Shown here: positions 4,588 through 25,317 of the stretch, one piece after another
Layout: each line of letters opens with the position of its first letter
Position numbering within the stretch: position 1 is the stretch's first letter
Source of the DNA: Dehalococcoidia bacterium
Lineage (GTDB): Bacteria > Chloroflexota > Dehalococcoidia > Lucifugimonadales > Lucifugimonadaceae
Length of the DNA stretch: 64,000 nucleotides
Assembly (NCBI GenBank): GCA_009693115.1
Contig: SHXW01000011.1
Location: 1-64,000, forward strand
Direction: 5' to 3'
Position numbers and translations under genes: made by a program
The notes under the pieces: model-generated
Databases searched by the model: none
What the model was told of the DNA's origin: nothing
The model's input: only the letters and a program-made list of their open reading frames with translations

Positions 4588-5616
4588 TCAGCAAACGGAT
4601 CGGGGAGCGTTGACCTTGCGCCCGTCCACCCAGGCCTGCAACGCCTGGCGCGAAGAGTAAAGCGGCCTCCACCCCAATTCTGCCTTGGCCTTATCTGTGG
4701 AGGCCAGCCATGGGTGCTTGATGAAGTCCAGCCCGCACGCAGGCGACTGACTCTGGAGCCTTGCACGCCATGTCATGTTGACCGCGCCTGTCAAAAGCGG
4801 CCCCGGCACCGGCAGCAACCGGGCGCCGGACGCCTTCGCCACATCGCGCCACCTGACAGTGCCATCCCCGGCGATGTTGTAAACCCCACGCGCCCGGCTC
4901 GCCAGCGCAGCTTCAACGGCACTTACGTAATCATCAACGTGGAGGAACTGCATCTCCGGGTTGAAGCCCAGCGGGGCGGGCAGGAGCCGTCTGCCGAGCG
5001 CCTGGGCGATGAAATTATCCGCTCCCGCAGCCATTACCACGCAGCCACGCAGCACGGAGACCGCGCAGCCCGGGTTCTCTTCCGAGAACCTGAACAGCAG
5101 CTTCTCCGCCGCCACCTTCTGTTCCGAATACTGGAACCCTTTGACCGGGTTGACGGGGGTGGTCTCGCCGAACGGGCGCACAAACCCTTTGTGTGCGCCA
5201 TATGTGGTAGTGCTGCTCAGGTAAATGACCTGACGGACGCCAGCCGCGGCGCAGGCTTTAAGAAGCGACTCTGTCGCTCCCACGTTCACCTGCCAGGCAA
5301 ATGCACCGTCGCGGCTGCTCTTGAGCAGGTAGGCGAGGTGGATGACCGCTTCGATGCCATACCCGGCCAGGACATCGCCAAGCGGCTCCCGGACGTCCCG
5401 CATAACGGAGACGACGCGCTGTGTGCCGTTCCCATGCACGCTTGGGAGCAGGTCTATGGCCGCGATCAGTTCCGTGGAAGGAAGTGCTGCGAGTCGCCGC
5501 AGCGCGGCCTGTCCCAGGAACCCGGCGGAACCTGTGATGGCTATGCGCCGCGGCAGGGGACGACCGTCCTGTGCTGATGGGGCCAACGTGTTTCCGGGCC
5601 GGGTTTCGTCAACCAC
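4588..5616 (-). CDS. NAD-dependent epimerase/dehydratase (extended SDR)
   Basis: A 342-residue extended short-chain dehydrogenase. The glycine motif GSAGFLGQ lies about 30 residues from the start, HLAY follows the fourth strand, SSTTTYG gives the catalytic Ser/Thr, and YSEQK is the Tyr-x3-Lys pair. The HVDDYVSAVEAAL and NIAGDGTV segments are typical of nucleotide-sugar epimerase-like members, but the substrate cannot be told. It begins inside the last eight bases of the upstream small gene and ends 26 bases before the precorrin-2 dehydrogenase start, so it appears to be in one transcript with the tetrapyrrole genes. Confidence 0.85.
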   Translation of the reverse strand: MVDETRPGNTLAPSAQDGRPLPRRIAITGSAGFLGQAALRRLAALPSTELIAAIDLLPSVHGNGTQRVVSVMRDVREPLGDVLAGYGIEAVIHLAYLLKSSRDGAFAWQVNVGATESLLKACAAAGVRQVIYLSSTTTYGAHKGFVRPFGETTPVNPVKGFQYSEQKVAAEKLLFRFSEENPGCAVSVLRGCVVMAAGADNFIAQALGRRLLPAPLGFNPEMQFLHVDDYVSAVEAALASRARGVYNIAGDGTVRWRDVAKASGARLLPVPGPLLTGAVNMTWRARLQSQSPACGLDFIKHPWLASTDKAKAELGWRPLYSSRQALQAWVDGRKVNAPRSVC

Positions 5617-5980
5617 TCTTCACCTCGTCAGTGAAGTCAAATCCGATCTTGCCGAATCCCGGCACGACGAAGGCCATCCAAACCTTGTGCACTCCGGAGG
5701 ATAGAGTTTCGCCGTGGACCGAAATGACAATGTCCCTGTTCATGGCAAGGGTGAAGGTGTTCTTCTCATCCACCTGGTCAAACCGGGTCTGCCTGCCATC
5801 AATCTCAAACGATGAATCGGCCAGAGGGATGTCCCGACCATCGAGGGAGAGCGGCACCATCACCCTGGCGTACCCGGAGCCGAGGGAATTCTTCAGTTTG
5901 AACCGCCAACCGCCCTCAAAGTTTTCCAGGCTGGCTTTAACGTACAGACGCCTGAGGATGAATGCAGGTACTCCGGGCAT
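5609..5980 (-). CDS. Small beta-rich protein, tentatively DUF6379 / C-glycoside deglycosidase beta-subunit-like
   Basis: A 123-residue protein with no signal peptide or membrane segment. It starts MPGVPAFILRRLYVKASLEN and alternates short hydrophobic strands (ARVMVPLSLDGRDIPL, SFEIDGRQTRF, FTLAMNRDIVISVHGETL, HKVWMAFVVPGFGKIGFDF). From memory this resembles the small DUF6379 family, which includes beta subunits of C-glycoside-cleaving enzymes; that call is tentative. It is tightly placed between a class II aldolase (18-base gap) and an SDR epimerase (8-base overlap), which fits a small sugar-type catabolic module. Confidence 0.55.
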   Translation of the reverse strand: MPGVPAFILRRLYVKASLENFEGGWRFKLKNSLGSGYARVMVPLSLDGRDIPLADSSFEIDGRQTRFDQVDEKNTFTLAMNRDIVISVHGETLSSGVHKVWMAFVVPGFGKIGFDFTDEVKSG

Positions 5981-5998
5981 CAGAATCCCCTTCTTCGA

Positions 5999-6664
5999 TC
6001 AGTCCTTCAAGCCCGAACGCATCAAGTAAGCCCCTCGTTCAGCCTCGACCGCATCGGCGGGCAAAAGCGTCGCCCCCCCGGCGGCTTCTGCGAGCAGGAA
6101 GACATGCGCCGCCCGCTCAGCGAGCACGCACGCCTGCAGCGCATCATCAGGCGACGCGCCTGCCCCGCACAAGCCGTGGTTGCGCAGTAGAACGGCGCGC
6201 CTGTTGCCCAACGCCTTCACCGCTTCCGTTGCCAGTTCTTCTGATCCCGGGAAGCCGTAGCTGGCCACTTCCACCCCTCCACCCAGATAGACAACCATTT
6301 CGTCCATGACCGGAGGGATGGGCCTGCCCGCCACAGCGAGCGCCGTCGCATAGACCGAATGCGTGTGCATGACTGCCCCGACATCGGGCCGGGCACGGTA
6401 AATCGCAAGGTGCAGAAGAGATTCTGTTGAGGGGACGCCGTCGCCGTCCACAGGTTCTATTTCACTGTTCACCGCCACGAGGCCGTCGGCTGCTAGCTTC
6501 GAATAGTCCTTGCTCGCCGGAGTGATCAGAAAACGTTCAAGGCCGTGTTCTAGAGGCAGCCTCATGCTGGCGTTGCCAGACGACCCGGTCACCAGGCCGA
6601 GCAGGGCCATCTCCTTCACCGCTGCCAGCAGCAGGGCGCGTTCTCCTCTGTAGTCCTTTGGCAC
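5999..6664 (-). CDS. Class II aldolase/adducin family protein (L-fuculose-phosphate aldolase-like)
   Basis: A 221-residue zinc-dependent class II aldolase-like enzyme. The expected features are present in order: TGSSGNASMR phosphate-binding region near residue 27, ITPASKDYSKL, the catalytic glutamate in PSTESLLHLAIY, the zinc histidines in MHTHSVYA and the third histidine in LLRNHGLCGAG. Family members cleave ketose phosphates such as fuculose or ribulose phosphates, or act as decarboxylases; the substrate is not readable here. It is the first gene of a run with the DUF6379-like and epimerase genes. Confidence 0.85.
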   Translation of the reverse strand: MPKDYRGERALLLAAVKEMALLGLVTGSSGNASMRLPLEHGLERFLITPASKDYSKLAADGLVAVNSEIEPVDGDGVPSTESLLHLAIYRARPDVGAVMHTHSVYATALAVAGRPIPPVMDEMVVYLGGGVEVASYGFPGSEELATEAVKALGNRRAVLLRNHGLCGAGASPDDALQACVLAERAAHVFLLAEAAGGATLLPADAVEAERGAYLMRSGLKD

Positions 6665-15512: not shown

Positions 15513-16580
15513 GTGCAAATCTTGGCGACCACCGGGCAGAGGGCGGCCACAGAGCTGCCCCTGTTTTTCTCGAGGCACCAGCCGATGATTGCGGCCGGGC
15601 TCCGGGCTGAGATCGCGTCGCAGTCGCTGCGTTTGTATGACACGTTGCGCTACCACATGGGCTGGGCTGATGAACAGGGCAAGCCCTCAAGTTCGGGCGG
15701 TGGCAAGGCCTTCAGGCCGACGCTGTGCCTGCTTTCTTGTGAAGCCGCAGGGGGTGCGCCTGAGCGAGCGCTCCCGGCAGCCGTTGCGCTTGAGTTCGTC
15801 CACAATTTTTCACTCATGCACGATGACGTGCAGGACATGGACCGTACACGGCGCGGCAGGCCCACGGTCTGGGCGGTGTGGGGCATCCCGGTCGCGGTAG
15901 TGTCAGGCAATACGATGTTGAAGGTGGCCGACCTCGCCGTCGGGAGGCTGTTGGACATGGGCGTATCCGTTTCCGCTGCGATCGAAGCTGGCGAGGCGCT
16001 GACCCGGGGCTACCTCCGGATGATGGAGGGGCAGTTCCTGGACATAGAGTTCGAGTCCAGAGCGACGATCAGTGTTCAGGAATACCTGGACATGATCGAG
16101 CGCAAGACCGGTGCTCTCATTGAGACGGCTGTCTATCTAGGCCCTCTTGTGGCGCGTGACCGGCAGCCGGATAGGAAGCTCGCCGAGGGCTTCCGTGTCA
16201 TCGGCTGGGAACTGGGCAGGGTGTTCCAGATCAGGGATGACATCCTGGGCGTCTGGGGCGGACCAGTGACGGGCAAGCCCGTGGGTGCAGACATCCAGCG
16301 CCGGAAGAAGGCCCTCCCTGCCGTGCATGCCCTCGGCGTAGCCACAGGTGCGACGCGGCGAGAGCTGCACGCCATTTATGCCAAACAGACCGTCTCCGAG
16401 CCGGATGTGGCGCGGGTATTGGAAATCATGGAAAGACTTGACACTCAGAGTTACTGCCAGCGGATGGCGGAGGAACGATGGCAGCACGGGCGCCTGATGA
16501 TAAAGTCACTCAAACTGGCAGGAGATACAGCGCGCGAGTTTGAAGAGCTTGGCGAGTTTCTCCTGGTCAGGGAGAGTTAG
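15513..16580 (+). CDS. Polyprenyl (trans-isoprenyl) diphosphate synthase
   Basis: Chain-elongating prenyltransferase making FPP/GGPP or longer diphosphates from IPP and DMAPP. The 355-residue protein has the first aspartate-rich motif at MHDDVQDMDRTRRGRPT (about residue 107), GNTMLKVADLA after it, the second motif at FQIRDDILGVWGGPVTGKP, and the KKALPAVHAL segment. The GTG at 15513 follows GGACGGG and is taken as start; an internal ATG at 15585 is an alternative. It opens a plus-strand isoprenoid block containing hpnG, hpnC, hpnD and hpnE, and plausibly supplies farnesyl diphosphate to them. Product chain length cannot be fixed by eye. Confidence 0.9.
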   Translation: MQILATTGQRAATELPLFFSRHQPMIAAGLRAEIASQSLRLYDTLRYHMGWADEQGKPSSSGGGKAFRPTLCLLSCEAAGGAPERALPAAVALEFVHNFSLMHDDVQDMDRTRRGRPTVWAVWGIPVAVVSGNTMLKVADLAVGRLLDMGVSVSAAIEAGEALTRGYLRMMEGQFLDIEFESRATISVQEYLDMIERKTGALIETAVYLGPLVARDRQPDRKLAEGFRVIGWELGRVFQIRDDILGVWGGPVTGKPVGADIQRRKKALPAVHALGVATGATRRELHAIYAKQTVSEPDVARVLEIMERLDTQSYCQRMAEERWQHGRLMIKSLKLAGDTAREFEELGEFLLVRES

Positions 16581-16968
16581 TTTCTGTCCCGAGATCCCCA
16601 ATCCCGTTGGGAAGGGGGCGGGGTTCGGGCATCAAACTGGGAATCCGCTTCCACGACAACCCGCTTTTCCTGCGCGGCGACCGCACCTATGAGACTTGCG
16701 CCGCATGGACCAACCCCACATACACGGTGCCCGGCAGGCACAAACCCTGCCACCCGCTTGCTGACGGCCACGCCGGGAAACTCTCCGAGGGTATGTCGAA
16801 GGAGGTTTGGGACAGATACGGCGGTGCCGACAAGGACAGGCACTGCGGCTTCGAGTCCACAACCATCGTTGGCGCCTTGACTCGCAGCGGGCTTACCGCC
16901 GGGTAGCAATCCGTCCAGAGACATGCGCCGGGGCTGCACAGTGCGGCTCCCCCGCCACGGTGCGAAAC
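16581..16968 (+). other. Gene-poor gap between the prenyl synthase and hpnG
   Basis: About 390 bases. The first 45 contain one of the dispersed palindromic repeats (CCCCAATCCCGTTGGG near 16596). Both strands carry open frames of 99-120 codons, but neither has recognisable domains, so they are not called. The loss of genes seen just downstream makes this a possible site of another decayed gene; nothing can be identified. Confidence 0.4.
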
Positions 16969-17784
16969 ATGATTGTCATTGTTGCGGCCCTATACGAGGA
17001 AGTCTCCACCCTGCTGCGGCGCGGGCGGTTCCGGTCAGCCAAAGGGCCGGCTGGCCTGTCCGCCTACTACAACCACCATTCTGTGGGCCACGTAATAGTG
17101 GACAGGATGGTCATAGTGTCGGGAGCGGGCGCGGAGAAGGCGAAGGCGGCGGCGGAATGGGCCATTGCCGAACACCGGCCCGAAGCGGTCATTTCGCTGG
17201 GGTTCGGCGGTGCCTGCCGGGAGGATATTGACGCCGGTGACCTGGTGCTCGCGACCGAGGTCCGGCGCCTTGAGGGCAAGCCCTTCTTCTGGGACGAGAA
17301 GAGCCTCGGCGAAGCTGTGACGCCTGGACATGAACTGCTGACTGCTGCCCGGAGCGCGGCAGAGGTGGCCAGCATTGACTTTTTCATGGGCCGCATCATT
17401 TCGCTGCCCACTGTCGCGAAGACTGCGGCGATGAAACTGTGGTTGGGCAAGGTGCTGGGTGCGGCGGCAGTGGACATGGAGAGTTACTACGTTGGGCAGG
17501 CTGCTGCTGCTGCTGGCGTCCCGTTCCTTGCCGTCCGGGGCATCGTGGACATCGCCTCGCTGGAGTTGCCGGACTTTGTGGCGAACATGGACACCGGACC
17601 GGCGGTCAAGCGCCTGCGACCAGTGGCCGGGTATCTGCTGCGCACGCCGTCGGAAGTCGGGTCCCTCTCCCGACTCGGGCGGTCTGCGTTCCGGGCGCGC
17701 AAGTCGATGGCCGTGTTCGTTGACGAGCTGTCGCTTGAAATGACCGGGGCGCGGACCTCTCAAGTCCTGGTCGTTACCCCGTGA
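16969..17784 (+). CDS. hpnG: Hopanoid-associated nucleoside phosphorylase (HpnG-like)
   Basis: A PNP/UDP-family phosphorylase of 271 residues. HpnG cleaves adenine from adenosylhopane to give ribosylhopane in extended hopanoid synthesis. Seen: N-terminal MIVIVAALYEE, the phosphate/ribose region VIVSGAGAEKAKAAAEW and VISLGFGGACREDIDAGDLV, and the MESYYVGQAAAAAGVPFLAVRGI block that matches the base/ribose site (normally VDMES). The frame is open upstream to 16807, but similarity begins at the ATG at 16969. The stop overlaps the start of the hpnA remnant by four bases (GTGA), so this was a coupled hopanoid operon. Confidence 0.8.
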   Translation: MIVIVAALYEEVSTLLRRGRFRSAKGPAGLSAYYNHHSVGHVIVDRMVIVSGAGAEKAKAAAEWAIAEHRPEAVISLGFGGACREDIDAGDLVLATEVRRLEGKPFFWDEKSLGEAVTPGHELLTAARSAAEVASIDFFMGRIISLPTVAKTAAMKLWLGKVLGAAAVDMESYYVGQAAAAAGVPFLAVRGIVDIASLELPDFVANMDTGPAVKRLRPVAGYLLRTPSEVGSLSRLGRSAFRARKSMAVFVDELSLEMTGARTSQVLVVTP

Positions 17785-18098
17785 AGCTCCTTGTAACAGG
17801 AGCAACTGGATTTGTAGGGGGAACCGTCGCCCGGTTATTAGCAGCGCGCGGGCACAGCGTGCGGGGCCTGGCGCGGGTGGGAAGTGACACTGCCAGCCTG
17901 GAAAAGGCCGGGGTTGAAGTGGTCTGTGGTGACATCCTCCACGGCGAGAGTGTCGCGGTGGCTTTGCGTGGGGCCGAAGGGCTATTTCACATCGCCGGCT
18001 TTGAACGGGGACGTAATGGACAGAGATACGTACTCGGCGGCTCCGACAAGCTGACGCAGCCGAGATCTTGCAGGCCGTCAGCCAGGCTGGGCCGAGTG
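17781..18098 (+). pseudogene. hpnA: Remnant of hpnA (hopanoid-associated sugar epimerase)
   Basis: The first 73 codons encode a clear SDR N-terminus (MKLLVTGATGFVGGTVARLL, then GAEGLFHIAG). They are joined directly to GRNGQRYVLGGSDKLT, which in intact HpnA lies some 170 residues further on. The middle of the gene, with the catalytic Tyr-x3-Lys, is therefore deleted. Near 18056 a one-base shift moves the frame, and the continuing HpnA-like AEILQAVSQAG is read in another frame. The sequence then passes without a break into a squalene-hopene cyclase fragment. The intact protein would be about 330 residues. Confidence 0.82.
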
Positions 18099-18790
18099 AT
18101 ATCAGGGTGAGCGACGCCGCGGTAGAGCGCGGGATGCGGTGGGTGCTCTCCATGCAGAGCAAGAACAGCGGCTGGGGCTCGTTCGACAAGGACAACACGA
18201 GCCTGCTGGCGACCAGGCTGCCATTCTTTGACTTCGGGGAAACAAATTGACCCGCCGAGTGTGGATGTGACCGCCCACATACTCGAGGCCATTGGCACAT
18301 TGGGGTATCCGGTGAAGGTGCCGGCTGTCGAAAAGGCGCTCAAATACATCTGGGATGAGCAGGAACAGAACGGCCCATGGTTCGGCAGGTTAGGGGCTGA
18401 TTACCTGTATGGGGCGGGCGTCGTGCTCCCCGCGCTCGCCTCGATCGGGTTTGACATGCAGGACGTAAGGGTGCAAAAAGCTGCTGATTGGGTGGAATCC
18501 CGCCAGAACCTTGATGGCGGTTGAGGGGAGACGCGGTAAACCGTGGCATGGAGTACCTCCTGAGGACACAGCAGGTGGACGGTGGCAGGGAAGAGGCCGA
18601 CTATACGGCGACCGGCTTTCCGGGTTACGGAATCGTCGACCGTAAGTTCAAGTCTCCGGGTGGAGAACGCTCGGAACTCGCGCCCGGCGAGATGCCAGCC
18701 GCCTTCATGATCAAGTAACATATGTATCGCCTTTACTGGCCGTTGTTGGCGTTGGGGCGATATGTCGCGAGCGCGAACACGCTCGCTTGA
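18099..18790 (+). pseudogene. shc: Remnant of squalene-hopene cyclase (C-terminal part)
   Basis: Only the last third of the cyclase is present: WVLSMQSKNSGWGSFDKDN, PFFDFGET, IDPPSVDVTAHILEAIG, LYGAGVVLPALASIGFD, NLDGG, RGMEYLLRTQQVDGG, TGFPGYG and YRLYWPLLALGRY. Lesions can be read directly: an extra A near 18242-18246 shifts the frame inside FGET/IDPPS; TGG is replaced by TGA in the Gly-Gly-Trp-Gly repeat at about 18522; a deletion of roughly 50 residues with a further shift follows near 18535; and a TAA at 18716-18718 replaces the tyrosine in MIK-Y-HMYRLYW. The catalytic DxDD motif, which would lie just before the retained part, is missing. No functional protein can be made. Confidence 0.9.
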
Positions 18791-19377
18791 ACATGGTGAT
18801 TGGTGACAGATCGAACTCAGGGGGTACCGGCTTGCAGAAAGCAAAAGCGGCTGAGATGACGGGGAGCGGCATCAGCGGCCGTGGCGCGTCAAGCAACGGC
18901 CACGCACGGCCGGAAGTCGTCGAGGGCACGTCTTTGAAGATCGTATCCCAGGTCTTTTCCTTTGAGACGGTCGGCGCGCCGGACTTTGTTGACCTGACAG
19001 CCGTAGTCTCGGACTTCGTAGCAAAATCTGGGGTCACTGCCGGTCAGGTTCTGGTGCACAGCAAGCACACGACGGCAGCCATCAAGATCAACGAGAATGA
19101 GCCACTGCTCCTCAAGGACGTGGCGCACTTCCTGGATCGGGCCGCCCCAAAGGACGCCTATTACCTGCATAACGACTTCGCCATCCGCACTGTGAACATG
19201 CACGAGGACGAGTGCCCGAACGGCCACGCTCACTGCCAGCACCTGATCCTGGGTACGAGCGAGGTGGTTCCGGTGATAGGTGGCGAGCTGGCGTTGGGAC
19301 AGTTCCAGCGGGTGTTCCTGATTGAGCTGGACGAACCGAAGACGCGCCAGGTAGTAATTCAGGTCATGGGCCTCTAA
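18787..19377 (+). CDS. YjbQ family protein (UPF0047; secondary thiamine-phosphate synthase-like)
   Basis: A cytosolic family of about 140 residues with a weak thiamine-phosphate synthase activity reported in E. coli but no firm role. The conserved core starts near residue 49 (SLKIVSQVFSFETVG) and contains VHSKHTTAAIKINENEP, NDFAIRTVNMHEDE, NGHAHCQHLILGTSEVVPV and the C-terminal LIELDEPKTRQVVIQVMG; the conserved histidines and glutamate of the metal site are present. The N-terminal 45 residues are Gly/Ser-rich and probably not conserved; a TTG at 18832 after a GGGGG stretch is an alternative start. The open frame begins inside the last codons of the cyclase remnant. Confidence 0.85.
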   Translation: MNMVIGDRSNSGGTGLQKAKAAEMTGSGISGRGASSNGHARPEVVEGTSLKIVSQVFSFETVGAPDFVDLTAVVSDFVAKSGVTAGQVLVHSKHTTAAIKINENEPLLLKDVAHFLDRAAPKDAYYLHNDFAIRTVNMHEDECPNGHAHCQHLILGTSEVVPVIGGELALGQFQRVFLIELDEPKTRQVVIQVMGL

Positions 19378-19423: not shown

Positions 19424-20332
19424 ATGGCCACCACTTCCGCAGCAAGCTCCCCCGCAGCGGCGCGAGATGACGCGTTCACGGCCTGCGAACGGCTTGCAAA
19501 GTCGCACTACGAGAACTTTTCCGTGGCGACCTGGCTGCTCCCTGCAAGACTGCGCCGCCACATCTACCCGGTCTATGCCTTTTGTCGTGGTGTGGATGAC
19601 CTGGGAGATGAATTCTCAGGTGACAGGTCCGCCGCGCTCGATGAATGGGAGCGCCAGACGCGCCTGTGCTACTCGGGCACCCCCACGCATCCATATTTCA
19701 TCGCTCTTCAGGAAACGGTTGAGAAGTTTGACATCCCCCATGTGCTCTTTCTGAAACTGATCGAAGCGAACCGCCGTGACCAGCGCATCAAGCGATACCC
19801 CCACTACGCAGAACTTCTCGACTACTGCGACCATTCCGCCAACCCGGTGGGTCGCATGGTGCTCTACCTCTTCGGCCACCGGGAGGAGGAGTTGCATATC
19901 CTTTCTGATTACACCTGCACCGCCCTCCAACTGACTAATTTCTGGCAGGATGTGTGGCGGGACTACGAGAGTGGGCGCATCTACCTACCGCTTGCTGACA
20001 TGCGTGATTTCGGCGTGGACGAGCAGGCCATAGCTGACCGCCGCGCGACGCCCGGGTTCAAGCGCCTGATGAAGTTCGAGGTCGAGCGTACCCGCGACCT
20101 CTTTCGGAAGGGTTACCCGCTGTCTGTCCGTGTCGTCAGGCAGGCACGGATAGACGTCACGCTCTTCACAGCAGGCGGGCTATCAGTGCTCAAGGCGATT
20201 GAAGCGCAGGACCATGACGTGTTGGCGTCCCGGCCAGCGCTTTCCAAGCGGGCGAAGGCACGTCTGCTCGCCATGGCCTGGCTGAGGACGAAGCTGGGGT
20301 TAGAGCCTTTGCCGCGGAGCCTGATCGGATAG
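19424..20332 (+). CDS. hpnC: Hydroxysqualene synthase HpnC (squalene/phytoene synthase family)
   Basis: With HpnD and HpnE this forms the bacterial three-enzyme squalene route; HpnC converts presqualene diphosphate to hydroxysqualene. The 302-residue protein has YAFCRGVDDLGDE (first aspartate motif), the tyrosine-rich RYPHYAELLDYCDHSANPVGRMVL and NFWQDVWRDYESGRIYLP (second aspartate motif). The CRGVDDLGDE and QDVWRDY variants are characteristic of HpnC rather than phytoene synthase. It is followed 37 bases later by hpnD on the same strand. Confidence 0.9.
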   Translation: MATTSAASSPAAARDDAFTACERLAKSHYENFSVATWLLPARLRRHIYPVYAFCRGVDDLGDEFSGDRSAALDEWERQTRLCYSGTPTHPYFIALQETVEKFDIPHVLFLKLIEANRRDQRIKRYPHYAELLDYCDHSANPVGRMVLYLFGHREEELHILSDYTCTALQLTNFWQDVWRDYESGRIYLPLADMRDFGVDEQAIADRRATPGFKRLMKFEVERTRDLFRKGYPLSVRVVRQARIDVTLFTAGGLSVLKAIEAQDHDVLASRPALSKRAKARLLAMAWLRTKLGLEPLPRSLIG

Positions 20333-20369
20333 ACTTCCGTCCCGTGTGGAGTTGTATTGGGAGAGCGCA

Positions 20370-21275
20370 TTGACGTTGCAGGTTCCGGCATCCCCCGGCC
20401 CGACACGGGCCGCGCTAGACACGCGCATGGCGTACGACATCTGCGCAAAAATCACGCGCGCCGCATCGACGAACTTTTATTACGGCTTTCAGGCCTTGCC
20501 ACGCGACAAGCGCAATGCCATCTATGCCGCCTACGCCTTCTGCCGGCTGTGCGACGATATTGTTGACGAGCCGTCACGCAAAGCGACCGCAGCGCAAGAG
20601 TTGGCGAGTTTGCGCCTCGAGCTAGCGGCGGCGCACAGGGGTCAGGTGGACGGCCCTGTCTGGACGGCACTCGCTGACTCGCAGCGCAAGTACGGTATCA
20701 GGCAGGAACACCTTGTTGATGTGGTTGACGGTTGTGAGATGGACCTTACGAAGGCCAGCTACGCGAACTTCACCGAGCTTGAGGGGTATTGCAGGCGCGT
20801 GGCGAGCGCGGCCGGACTGGTGGTCTTGGAGGTTTGCGGGTATACGGATGAGAAGGCCGTGCAGCATGCCATAGACCTGGGCATCGCGATGCAGATCACG
20901 AACATCATGCGCGACCTGGCCGAGGATACCCGCAACGGTCGCGTCTATCTCCCTCAGGACGAGCTGCAACGCTTTGGCTATTCCGAAGCTGACCTCATGC
21001 GCAGCATTGTCGATGATCGCTTCCGTGGGCTGATGAAGTTCCAGACGGATCGGGCAAAGATGTATTTCGAAAGCGGGGAAAAGCTGTTCCCGTACCTTGA
21101 CCGTCGTTCAAGGACCTGCGCGGAGACGATGGCCCGGGTCTACCGCATGCTACTGAGCAAGATCGAATCGTCCGGTTATGACGTTTTCTCCCGCAGGGTG
21201 AGCCTGAGTAAACGGGAGAAGCTGGCACTGGCTGCGCGACTATGGCTTCAGAGCAGGTTGCTGGCGTTTGCCTGA
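20370..21275 (+). CDS. hpnD: Presqualene diphosphate synthase HpnD
   Basis: Head-to-head condensation of two farnesyl diphosphates to presqualene diphosphate. About 301 residues. The first aspartate motif is CRLCDDIVDEPS, preceded by STNFYYGFQALPRDKRNAIYA; the second is NIMRDLAEDTRNGRVYLPQDELQRFG. The TTG at 20370 has GGGAGAGC seven bases upstream and is preferred over the GTG at 20346; the ATG at 20427 is a third option. It is 30 bases ahead of hpnE. Together hpnC, hpnD and hpnE are sufficient for squalene formation from farnesyl diphosphate. Confidence 0.9.
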   Translation: MTLQVPASPGPTRAALDTRMAYDICAKITRAASTNFYYGFQALPRDKRNAIYAAYAFCRLCDDIVDEPSRKATAAQELASLRLELAAAHRGQVDGPVWTALADSQRKYGIRQEHLVDVVDGCEMDLTKASYANFTELEGYCRRVASAAGLVVLEVCGYTDEKAVQHAIDLGIAMQITNIMRDLAEDTRNGRVYLPQDELQRFGYSEADLMRSIVDDRFRGLMKFQTDRAKMYFESGEKLFPYLDRRSRTCAETMARVYRMLLSKIESSGYDVFSRRVSLSKREKLALAARLWLQSRLLAFA

Positions 21276-21305: not shown

Positions 21306-23810
21306 ATGAAACCCACATCATCTCCTGTCAGGCGCAAGACCGTCATCATCATCGGCGGTGGGATTGCAGGCCTTGCTGCCGCCGTCCGGCTGGGGCAGAT
21401 GGGCCATACGGCGGTCGTCCTCGAAAAACGGCCCTTTCTTGGAGGTCGCGCCTTCTCGTTCATTGACCCCGAGACTAGTGTGGAAGTGGACAACGGACAG
21501 CATGTCTTCGTCGGCGCTTGCACGGAATATCAGCAGTTCCTGAAGGACATAGGCGCGTGGGACAGGGTACGGATGCTGCCCAGGTTGGACTCTCTGGTGT
21601 TGAAGGGCAGGGTTGCGGCCAGATTGCGGGGGCCGGGGAACATGAAGGGTGAATACGCGAACATTTTTGCAGTCCTCGGATACAGTCACCTTTCCCTCGC
21701 CAACCGCCTCCGTGTCATCTACGGCATTGCGCGCATCAAGCATGCCCGTCGGCTGCCCGGCGGGCCACTTGAGCAAGAGACGTTCGACCGCTGGCTGTTG
21801 CGCCATGGGCAGAACGACCGGACCATCAAGTACTTCTGGGACCTCATCGTCCTGCCTGCACTCAATGACAGCATTTCTGCCGTGAGCGCCGACGCCGGGC
21901 TGATGCTGTTTCAGACTGCTCTCCTGGGCGGACCTGCGAACGCGGCCATTGGTTACCCGGTGACCGGACTTACAACACTCACCGGCGACCCCGCGCGGGC
22001 GGCGATAGAGAGGGATGGGGGGGTGGTCAGGCCCGGCGCAGAGGTTGAACAGATCGAATTCGAGGGTGGACAGGTAAGCGGCGTCAGGCTTGCAGGCGGT
22101 GAGGTGGTGCGGGGCGACGCGTACATCGCCGCTCTGCCCGCCGCGGCGATGTTGGGCGTGCTTCCGTATGAGGTCCAACAGAGCGGTTTCTTCGCGTCGG
22201 CCCGTGGCATTGAAACGTCCCCCATCGTTGGCGTCCACATCTGGTACGACCGCCCTGTGATGGTTGAGAAGTTCGCCGCTGTGCTGGATAGTCCGCTGCA
22301 GTGGGTGTTCAACGTTGACGCGATGCAAGGGGACGACCGGGCCGTTGGACAGGCTGTGGGCGGGCAGGGGCCGGGCGGCGGGCAGCACGTCGTGATTTCC
22401 CTGAGCGGCGCGTGGCAGTGGAGGGACATGGGCAAGGCTGAACTGCGGGAGACGTTCGCGGCTGAGATGGTCAAAGTATTTCCGGCGGCGAACGGTGCTC
22501 AGGTGACGCGGTCGCTGACCGTGAAGACGCTGGATGCCACATTCAGGTCCGTGCCGGGTTCCGAGCGGTACAGGCTTCCGCAGAAGACACCTGTAGCGAA
22601 CTTCTTTCTGGCGGGTGATTGGACGGCCACCGGCTGGCCCTCGACCATGGAGAGCGCGGTGCGGAGCGGGAACCGGGCGGCGAAGGCTGCCGTCAGCTTG
22701 TTGCAGTCCACCCTGGGCCACGCTTCCATCGAGGTTGCGTTGGCCGCTCCTGTTCGGACTGAGGGTGTCTACCTGCATGGGATGCATGCCTCCTCCGGTG
22801 TGTCTTCACTCAAGAGCGTGCTAGTCCTCGCGCCGTTCGATGACGAATCGCTCACAGAACTGCGCGAAGAGTGCGACGTGACGGTAGAGAGCTGGCTCGA
22901 CACCGGGAAGCTCTGGGACCCAGCGGAACTCGGAACGCGCATCTGCGACGAAAGATTCGACGCCGTCATCGCAGAGTCCGATTTTCTGTTCGCAGAGACA
23001 TTCGATGCCGCTCCGGGCCTGAAGTTCGCCGGAATATGCCGGTCAGCAATTAACCAGGTTGACGTGGTGGCTGCGACCGGACGGGGTGTCGTCGTCGTGA
23101 ACACGCCGGGGCGCAACGCCGTTGCGGTGGCGGAGCACGCAGTTGGGCTGATGCTCGCGGTGGCAAGGCGCACTGCCGAATCGGACAGATACGTGCAGGA
23201 GCGCAGGTGGGAATCGCCGTCGGAGCCATACAGGTCACTGCGCGGAGTCGAGCTAAGTGGCAAGGTGGTGGGCATCGTTGGCCTGGGCGCCATAGGCAGG
23301 CGTGTGGCATCGCTTTGCAACGCCTTTGGGATGCATGTGTTGGCATACGACCCCTTCGTGACTCGCGCGGACGCAAAGGCTGTCGGCGCGGTGTGGTCAG
23401 AGCTTGACTTCCTGCTTGAATCGGCGGACTTTGTGACGCTGCACGCTCCGGCGCCAATGGATGGGACGCCTCTCCTCAGCGCTGATCGCGTAGCGCGGAT
23501 GAAGCATGGGGCGGTGATCGTGAACACAGCGTCCGCAGAGCTGGTGGACCAGGGCGCGCTCGTTGCTGCACTCAAGTCAGGTGGGCTGCGTGGCGCGGGC
23601 CTGGACATATTCCCAACGCACCCCGTTGAGCCGTCCAGTCCGTTGCTGGGCCTCGCTAACGTCGTGCTTACGCCGCACATCGGCGGCGCGACGGACGGAA
23701 CCATAGAACGGTACTCGGCTGCGATGGCTGTTGACCTGATCCGGTTCAAGAATGGTGAGAGGCCGCTGCACCTGGTAAACCCCGAGGTCTGGGAGCGTAG
23801 GCGTGCCTAG
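21306..23810 (+). CDS. hpnE: HpnE (hydroxysqualene dehydroxylase) fused to a 2-hydroxyacid-dehydrogenase-like domain
   Basis: An 834-residue two-domain protein. Residues 1-480 are an FAD amine-oxidase-fold enzyme (VIIIGGGIAGLAAAVRLGQMG, KRPFLGGRAFSF, and the C-terminal FAD block NFFLAGDWTATGWPSTMESAV), matching HpnE, which reduces hydroxysqualene to squalene. After a linker, residues 493-834 resemble D-2-hydroxyacid dehydrogenases (GIVGLGAIGRRVASLC nucleotide motif; TPHIGGATDGT with the catalytic His). In that domain the catalytic Arg position reads NTASAELVD instead of N-x-x-RG, and the catalytic Glu position reads FPTHP instead of FPTEP. An ATG at 22782 could start a separate protein but lacks a good ribosome-binding site. 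The 3' end overlaps the kinase gene by eight bases. Confidence 0.88.
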   Translation: MKPTSSPVRRKTVIIIGGGIAGLAAAVRLGQMGHTAVVLEKRPFLGGRAFSFIDPETSVEVDNGQHVFVGACTEYQQFLKDIGAWDRVRMLPRLDSLVLKGRVAARLRGPGNMKGEYANIFAVLGYSHLSLANRLRVIYGIARIKHARRLPGGPLEQETFDRWLLRHGQNDRTIKYFWDLIVLPALNDSISAVSADAGLMLFQTALLGGPANAAIGYPVTGLTTLTGDPARAAIERDGGVVRPGAEVEQIEFEGGQVSGVRLAGGEVVRGDAYIAALPAAAMLGVLPYEVQQSGFFASARGIETSPIVGVHIWYDRPVMVEKFAAVLDSPLQWVFNVDAMQGDDRAVGQAVGGQGPGGGQHVVISLSGAWQWRDMGKAELRETFAAEMVKVFPAANGAQVTRSLTVKTLDATFRSVPGSERYRLPQKTPVANFFLAGDWTATGWPSTMESAVRSGNRAAKAAVSLLQSTLGHASIEVALAAPVRTEGVYLHGMHASSGVSSLKSVLVLAPFDDESLTELREECDVTVESWLDTGKLWDPAELGTRICDERFDAVIAESDFLFAETFDAAPGLKFAGICRSAINQVDVVAATGRGVVVVNTPGRNAVAVAEHAVGLMLAVARRTAESDRYVQERRWESPSEPYRSLRGVELSGKVVGIVGLGAIGRRVASLCNAFGMHVLAYDPFVTRADAKAVGAVWSELDFLLESADFVTLHAPAPMDGTPLLSADRVARMKHGAVIVNTASAELVDQGALVAALKSGGLRGAGLDIFPTHPVEPSSPLLGLANVVLTPHIGGATDGTIERYSAAMAVDLIRFKNGERPLHLVNPEVWERRRA

Positions 23811-25317
23811 CCGCAGGCCGCTCTTTCTGGCGGTTGACTTTGGGACCAGCCACGTCCGCGCCGCAGTGGGAGCGAGCGCAGGCACTCCCTTCGCTGTCGC
23901 GGCACGTCCGGTGCGGTACTTCGTCCCGGAAGGCGGGCCGCAAACGGCGAGCGAGTTCAGCACCGAGGCGGTCTGGAGATCTGTCTGCGTCTGCGTCCGG
24001 GATGTGGTCGGGCTGGCAGGAGTGAAGGAGGATCAGATAGCTGGCATTGGCGTGACCAGCCAGCGGCTGGGCCTCGTCATGATCGGCCTCGACGGGAAAG
24101 AACTTTACGGCGGGCCGAACAGCGACGCGCGCGGAATCTTCGAGGGTGCTGAGATAGACGCCGAGATGGGCGATGCCATCTGGCAGGCTACCGGCCACGG
24201 GCCCGCACTCCTGCTTGCGTGGTCGAAGCTTCTGTGGTTCAAAAAGAACGCGCCGAAAACCTTCGAGCGCGCCCGTTCCATCGCCGGGCTGGCCGATTGG
24301 CTGGTTTACCGCATGACCGGAGTGCTGGCGATGGAGCCTGCGCTGGGCGTCGAGTCCGGGCTGGCACTCATTTCGACTGGCCTGCCTGCGACGGCCCTGC
24401 GACGGCCTCTGGGGCTGGATCAGATAGAACTGCCGGCAACGTGCGCTGCGGGGACTGTTGCCGGGTCTCTCAAGTCAGGGCCTGCGCGCAATTTTGGCCT
24501 CCGTGAGGGCACGCCGGTTGTCGTCTGTGGGCCGGACACGCAGGCTGGGCTCGTGGGGATGGGGGTGAGCGAACCGGGCAGTGTGGGCGTGATAGCAGGT
24601 TGGAGCGCAGCGGCGCAACTTGTCACGGACAGGCCCGTATTCGATGAGACGCGATCACTATGGACGGGGCGGCACGTCGTCCCGGAGCGGTGGGTGCTTG
24701 AGGGTAATGTGGGCGAAATGGGGGGCGCATATGCCTGGTTGGCTGGGCTGATGTCTGAAGGCGTGCATAGGGAGGAGACATTTGCGAGGCTGGACAGGAT
24801 GGCATCGAAGGTGGAGCCGGGGTCAAGGGGGACGAGTGCGTTCCTGGGGCCGTCGTTCGTAAACATGCTGACTGTCGGGCTCAAGACCGGTGGCGTTACC
24901 TTCCCCGTCCCGCTCGCCTTCGAGCCGCCGGACCGGGGGTCTATCGCACGCGCCGCGCTTGAGAATTTCGCCTTCGCGCTCAGACACAACCTTGACAGGC
25001 TGGGCCTTGTCGCGGGCGGGTGGCGGGATGTGGCCGTGGGTGGCGGGATGGTGAAGACGAAGACGTTCCGCGAATTGGTCGCAGCCTGTCTGGCGCGGCC
25101 GGTCGCATTTGGGACAGCGGGCGATGCCACGGTGCGGGGCACCCTCTCCTTGACGGGTGCTGGCACTGGTGAAGGACTGCCGCTTGACCGTGCACTCGCG
25201 CGTCGGCGAAACGAATTGCGAACATTGGAGCCTTCTGCAACGGACGCCGCGCGGTATGACGACCTGTACCTTGGCTGGCGGATGCGGGAACGGCGTCTTC
25301 TTGAGATGGAGGTTTAG
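23803..25317 (+). CDS. FGGY-family carbohydrate kinase
   Basis: ATP-dependent kinase of sugars or polyols, 504 residues, closest in appearance to xylulokinases. The N-terminal actin-like ATPase domain starts LAVDFGTSHVRAAVG; TSQRLGLVMI and DARG follow; the catalytic aspartate lies in CGPDTQAGLVGMG; the second domain has GGGMVKTKTFRELVA near the C-terminus. The substrate is not readable. The GTG start lies within the end of the HpnE-fusion gene (8-base overlap), so it is coupled to that dehydrogenase-like domain rather than obviously to squalene synthesis. Confidence 0.85.
   Translation: MPSRRPLFLAVDFGTSHVRAAVGASAGTPFAVAARPVRYFVPEGGPQTASEFSTEAVWRSVCVCVRDVVGLAGVKEDQIAGIGVTSQRLGLVMIGLDGKELYGGPNSDARGIFEGAEIDAEMGDAIWQATGHGPALLLAWSKLLWFKKNAPKTFERARSIAGLADWLVYRMTGVLAMEPALGVESGLALISTGLPATALRRPLGLDQIELPATCAAGTVAGSLKSGPARNFGLREGTPVVVCGPDTQAGLVGMGVSEPGSVGVIAGWSAAAQLVTDRPVFDETRSLWTGRHVVPERWVLEGNVGEMGGAYAWLAGLMSEGVHREETFARLDRMASKVEPGSRGTSAFLGPSFVNMLTVGLKTGGVTFPVPLAFEPPDRGSIARAALENFAFALRHNLDRLGLVAGGWRDVAVGGGMVKTKTFRELVAACLARPVAFGTAGDATVRGTLSLTGAGTGEGLPLDRALARRRNELRTLEPSATDAARYDDLYLGWRMRERRLLEMEV

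Follow-up and report, generated by a model that had tools for sequence, protein, structure and literature searches.

Why is a squalene-pathway enzyme encoded in one reading frame with a dehydrogenase, and what might the dehydrogenase do there? The frame in question occupies 21306-23810 on the forward strand of the window, the 64,000-nucleotide stretch of Dehalococcoidia DNA analyzed here. The first-pass annotation of this DNA described it as a single 834-residue frame that joins the hydroxysqualene dehydroxylase HpnE to a full-length D-2-hydroxyacid dehydrogenase (2-HADH) fold, the latter proposed as a non-catalytic NAD(P)H sensor, a source of reductant for the FAD domain, or an enzyme with new chemistry. 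The reading that we favor, with somewhat better than even confidence, is instead a lineage-specific and functionally neutral fusion in a degenerating gene cluster, with the dehydrogenase-like (DH) half acting as a redox enzyme for a sugar-type substrate.

Two intact halves in a single frame

Translation of the assembled contig indeed yields 834 residues uninterrupted by a stop, and profile matches (TIGR03467, PF02826 and PF00389) recover both halves as annotated. The HpnE domain, an FAD enzyme, is intact (21306-22726, + strand, residues 1 to about 473), and scores 354.4 bits against TIGR03467 over residues 13-463, with a family cut-off of 283.05. Its partners are encoded directly upstream on the same strand, hpnC at 19424-20332 (TIGR03464, 318 bits) and hpnD at 20346-21275 (TIGR03465, 297 bits). 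The half thus resembles established HpnE proteins in both score and gene context, and would still make squalene together with HpnC and HpnD, and it is up to 62% identical to the stand-alone HpnE of relatives. The window protein differs from the family by its C-terminal DH domain, fused in none of the relatives examined.

The DH domain (22815-23807, + strand) matches PF02826 at residues 613-793 (1.5e-55) and PF00389 at residues 505-825, both above cut-off. An AlphaFold (AF2) model of this domain alone reached a pLDDT of 87.6, and structure comparisons by Foldseek and VIA matched it over the entire chain to glyoxylate reductases, McyI and phosphoglycerate dehydrogenases (PGDHs), with a VIA Z of about 32 against 5aov/2dbq, congruent with the two-domain 2-HADH fold. 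In a tree comparison the branch lengths of the window HpnE and DH resembled those of their relatives, with no sign of faster evolution. Both halves are thus probably still under selection, and the idea that either is a pseudogene under relaxed evolution is unsupported.

A probably lineage-specific fusion

The halves are connected by a linker at 22727-22814 (+ strand, residues 474-502 approximately) that consists of the former intergenic region and a lost stop, and is about 24 residues longer than the equivalent in relatives. A consistent stop between the domains in relatives had been named beforehand as evidence against a meaningful fusion, and exactly this was found: hpnE and dh are separated by a stop in 28 of 28 distinct relatives with both genes adjacent, a count that includes one locus with hpnE broken in two (L049) and a few with a longer gap between the genes. 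A conserved HpnE-DH fusion is thereby ruled out, and the joining looks lineage-specific and probably incidental. It would also have been easily achieved, since in the nearest group (L031, L032 and L055) the two genes already share a frame and are kept apart only by one stop and 27 nucleotides, so that loss of the stop suffices to join them. The position where dh ancestrally starts reads AAG in the window, and an in-frame ATG at 22782, preceded by a weak GAGG, might serve as a separate start for DH. The 36 open codons of the linker have a chance probability of about 0.36 at the local GC content; openness is thus not unlikely by chance and, taken alone, is no evidence of a selected fusion. We picture the stop and the usual start as having been lost between adjacent genes in this lineage only, leaving DH tethered and otherwise an ordinary member of its family.

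Could the frame be an artifact, with a stop missed through a base error in a metagenome-type assembly and two genes that are really separate? The assembly is in 40 contigs, every relative has the stop, and the linker is of a length that stays open by chance often enough. However, housekeeping frames nearby are intact, and the frame remains open throughout a linker with its extra residues and with AAG at the ancestral start; the added length means that more than one base differs. We consider such an error quite unlikely.

The opposite reading, of a selected bifunctional enzyme in which NAD(P)H would reduce the FAD of HpnE by way of the DH half, is attractive insofar as HpnE catalyzes a net reduction and two intact halves lie within one frame. 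On the other hand, the fusion is conserved in no relative, hpnE and dh are apart in many genomes, members of a sister genus, g12, keep HpnE without any DH, and 2-HADHs transfer their hydride to a bound substrate rather than to flavin partners. We regard the bifunctional enzyme as highly improbable, and with the genes separate in relatives and the partners of DH being different ones, the suggested supply or sensing of reductant for HpnE has lost its support. The intactness of both halves in one frame nevertheless weighs against strict neutrality, as the fusion could have been retained for some benefit. Either way, it teaches little by itself beyond gene joining during cluster decay.

Remnants of a hopanoid cluster

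The surroundings of the fused frame are best understood from relatives, which share the hopanoid order hpnH-hpnG-hpnA-shc-hpnCDE. In one of them, G001, the complete series runs prenyl synthase, hpnH, hpnG, hpnA, shc, a YjbQ-like gene, hpnC, hpnD and hpnE, and continues with dh, an FGGY kinase, a class II aldolase and an SDR gene. The window departs from hopanoid clusters in that three of the genes are remnants and that the cluster is extended by DH, the kinase and the aldolase. At its head, a polyprenyl diphosphate synthase is encoded at 15513-16580 (+ strand; PF00348 and synteny), the best NCBIfam match of which is the family 2 encapsulin cargo polyprenyl transferase, at 300 bits and below the cut-off of 450.

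All following cluster genes are on the same strand. hpnH is reduced to residues 208-346 with internal deletions (16562-16903; tblastn E 8e-29), and is followed by an open frame for an hpnG-like nucleosidase (16969-17784; PF01048, 43% identical to a relative). The segment 17781-18047 is what is left of hpnA, residues 1-74 joined to 213-232. The squalene-hopene cyclase gene, shc, persists as residues 403-682 at 18053-18784, in 61-73% identical pieces spread over two reading frames with internal stops, the first 402 residues being absent. Next comes a cluster-conserved gene at 18787-19377, recognized by synteny, that we take to be YjbQ-like. A search of the window's genome, which is 95.6% complete, returned no HpnH or SHC elsewhere at E 1e-30, ruling out an intact hopanoid pathway at another site at that threshold. 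From the remnants between 16562 and 18784, the genome appears to have lost hopanoid synthesis recently, while hpnCDE were kept.

A dehydrogenase clade without two catalytic residues

Residue equivalences were set by alignment to the solved PGDHs 1wwk, 3ddn and 1ygy. Like PGDH/SerA, glyoxylate reductase and McyI, the domain has the full fold, the GxGxxG nucleotide-binding motif, as GLGAIGRR at 23280-23303, and the catalytic histidine, His791 (codon 23676-23678, TPHIGG). The two other members of the triad are missing: SerA Arg240 corresponds to Ser743 (codon 23532-23534, NTASAELVD) and Glu269 to His772 (codon 23619-23621, DIFPTHP). The first-pass annotation had read all four features correctly, and the substitutions extend to the whole clade. 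DH scores far under every NCBIfam equivalog cut-off checked.

In a tree of 90 sequences (53 from Dehalococcoidia and 37 others), all Dehalococcoidia DHs fall on one side of a branch with an SH-aLRT of 95. Both Arg and Glu are missing in 53 of these 53, a class-wide loss that sets them apart from known D-2-hydroxyacid dehydrogenases, while 36 of the 37 remaining members have both and the archaeal L093 has Glu only. Active-site decay limited to the window is thus ruled out. The histidine is invariant in the Dehalococcoidia set as in all 90 sequences, and two subfamily arginines, in GICR and PGRN, are near-invariant throughout the alignment and represent candidate substrate-binding residues. The Arg position is taken by S, G, N, A, D or F, and the Glu position by H, W, A, Q, T, S or R, variation indicating that no new pair has become fixed. 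This loss, rather than the fusion, is the real novelty of the locus: a family in which, throughout a bacterial class, only one of the three catalytic residues is left, and which stays attached to hopanoid genes, often within the operon and beside sugar enzymes.

We propose that the Arg that binds the carboxylate and the Glu that activates the His disappeared in the Dehalococcoidia branch, and that the acid/base His, the two arginines and the NAD site were retained. The enzyme would then still catalyze NAD(P)-dependent redox reactions of a substrate that carries no 2-carboxylate, such as an aldehyde, a ketose or a polyol, with the histidine as sole acid/base. New chemistry, as suggested in the first-pass annotation, may thus apply to the DH family itself. 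The variable replacements fit a loss of catalysis as well, and the Dehalococcoidia DH might bind NAD(H) without catalysis, as a subunit or sensor of, for instance, the kinase or the aldolase, in keeping with the retained NAD motif. A pure sensor would however have no need of the acid/base His, present without exception, and the two near-invariant arginines likewise argue against it; we find this role rather doubtful.

Sugar enzymes as partners

HpnE is not among the general partners of DH; these are instead an FGGY carbohydrate kinase and a class II aldolase. In the window the kinase follows the fused frame at 23803-25317 (+ strand; PF00370/PF02782 and synteny) and retains its GPDTQ motif. The aldolase is encoded at 5999-6664 on the reverse strand, with FucA/RhuA-type matches and with the NHG, HTH and STE motifs present; at 61% identity, it is the relocated ortholog of the gene that comes after the kinase in relatives. 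Together with the SDR gene it now lies inverted at 4588-6664 (- strand), about 17 kb upstream of the place that it occupies in relatives.

Scanning genomes with the DH alignment yielded 80 loci. The kinase, the aldolase or both come after DH in nearly all Dehalococcoidia loci where the contig reaches far enough, also in the absence of hpn genes (L076, L079, L081, L082, L085 and L090-L092), and in most Actinobacteria loci the aldolase follows DH. In two distant lineages the partnership is fixed in a single protein: a deltaproteobacterium (L109, 7408-11250) encodes an FGGY kinase, a 2-HADH, an SCP2 sterol-transfer domain and a class II aldolase in 1281 residues, and a Thermoflexus locus (L103, 7435-11058) has the same kinase-DH-SCP2-aldolase arrangement in at least 1208 residues, running to the end of the locus. 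In the Bacillota locus L096, the module genes come after a sugar-type ABC transporter and an IclR regulator.

These arrangements are reminiscent of sugar catabolic modules of the fucose/rhamnose type, which have the same kinase and aldolase partners, with their motifs present here, and to which the proximity of Bacillota homologues to sugar transporters also corresponds. They differ in that the third enzyme of those modules is a ketol isomerase, where a 2-HADH-like protein is found here, and in that the Dehalococcoidia version is embedded in a hopanoid cluster. Literature searches returned no paper on a combination of FGGY kinase, class II aldolase and 2-hydroxyacid dehydrogenase, and the genes around DH homologues outside hpn clusters (encoding radical SAM, DUF362, sirtuin, amidohydrolase and NUDIX proteins) gave no pointer to the substrate. 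Modules that stand free of hopanoid genes suggest that a role in sugar metabolism is the older one, and the undescribed 2-HADH subfamily to which DH belongs would work with the kinase and the aldolase on a sugar-type substrate.

Association with hopanoid genes and possible roles

Within the window's order DH tracks the hopanoid cyclase, an observation that speaks against a free sugar module: SHC is present in 19 of 20 genomes with DH vs 1 of 25 without (Fisher 1.6e-10, uncorrected for kinship), and the lone DH-positive genome without an SHC over cut-off is the window's own, with its shc remnant. Among the remaining genomes of the class the association dissolves, with SHC in 8 of 25 DH-positive vs 44 of 224 DH-negative genomes (p 0.19), hence a strict class-wide tie between DH and hopanoid genes is ruled out. 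In g12, hpnH, hpnA, shc and dh have all been lost and hpnCDE are intact; the kinase is intact in G011, carries two stops in G319 and was not found in G021, G031 and G313. At the sister-genus loci L036, L038, L039 and L139, squalene synthesis apparently goes on with no standard hopanoid cyclase. The operon position of DH, together with these parallel losses, favors a hopanoid role within the window's order. We picture DH as an enzyme that was brought into the hopanoid operon of Dehalococcoidia, where its substrate may be the side chain of hopanoids.

Such a role could be played jointly with the kinase and the aldolase on the ribose-derived side chain, either as the reductase from ribosylhopane to bacteriohopanetetrol (BHT) or in trimming, which we regard as a less likely alternative. 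DH ends the hpnH-hpnG-hpnA-shc-hpnCDE operon across much of Dehalococcoidia, the link with SHC in the order and the joint loss in g12 are as expected, the missing carboxylate-binding Arg suits an aldehyde substrate, and the SCP2 domain of the fused homologues belongs to a sterol-transfer family. In addition, the enzyme turning ribosylhopane into BHT has not been established (PMC12583986), making the genes of the DH family a testable candidate set for that step. On the other side, 17 DH-positive genomes elsewhere in the class have neither SHC nor HpnH and 44 SHC-positive ones have no DH, relatives beyond the class adjoin sugar transporters, and the co-loss may stem from operon deletions. The step matters, as bacteriohopanetetrol is a major biomarker lipid. 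Still less likely is the specific proposal that the kinase, the Arg/Glu-less 2-HADH and the aldolase constitute an unrecognized Dehalococcoidia hopanoid side-chain module, with DH being the missing reductase to BHT or, alternatively, part of a shortening of the side chain that releases triose phosphate and a C32 hopanoid.

Lastly, among the DH homologues outside hpn clusters, L076, L081, L082 and L085 have Trp at the catalytic Glu position, and in the first three of these, the ones for which the gene directly upstream was tested, that gene encodes a DUF362 protein.
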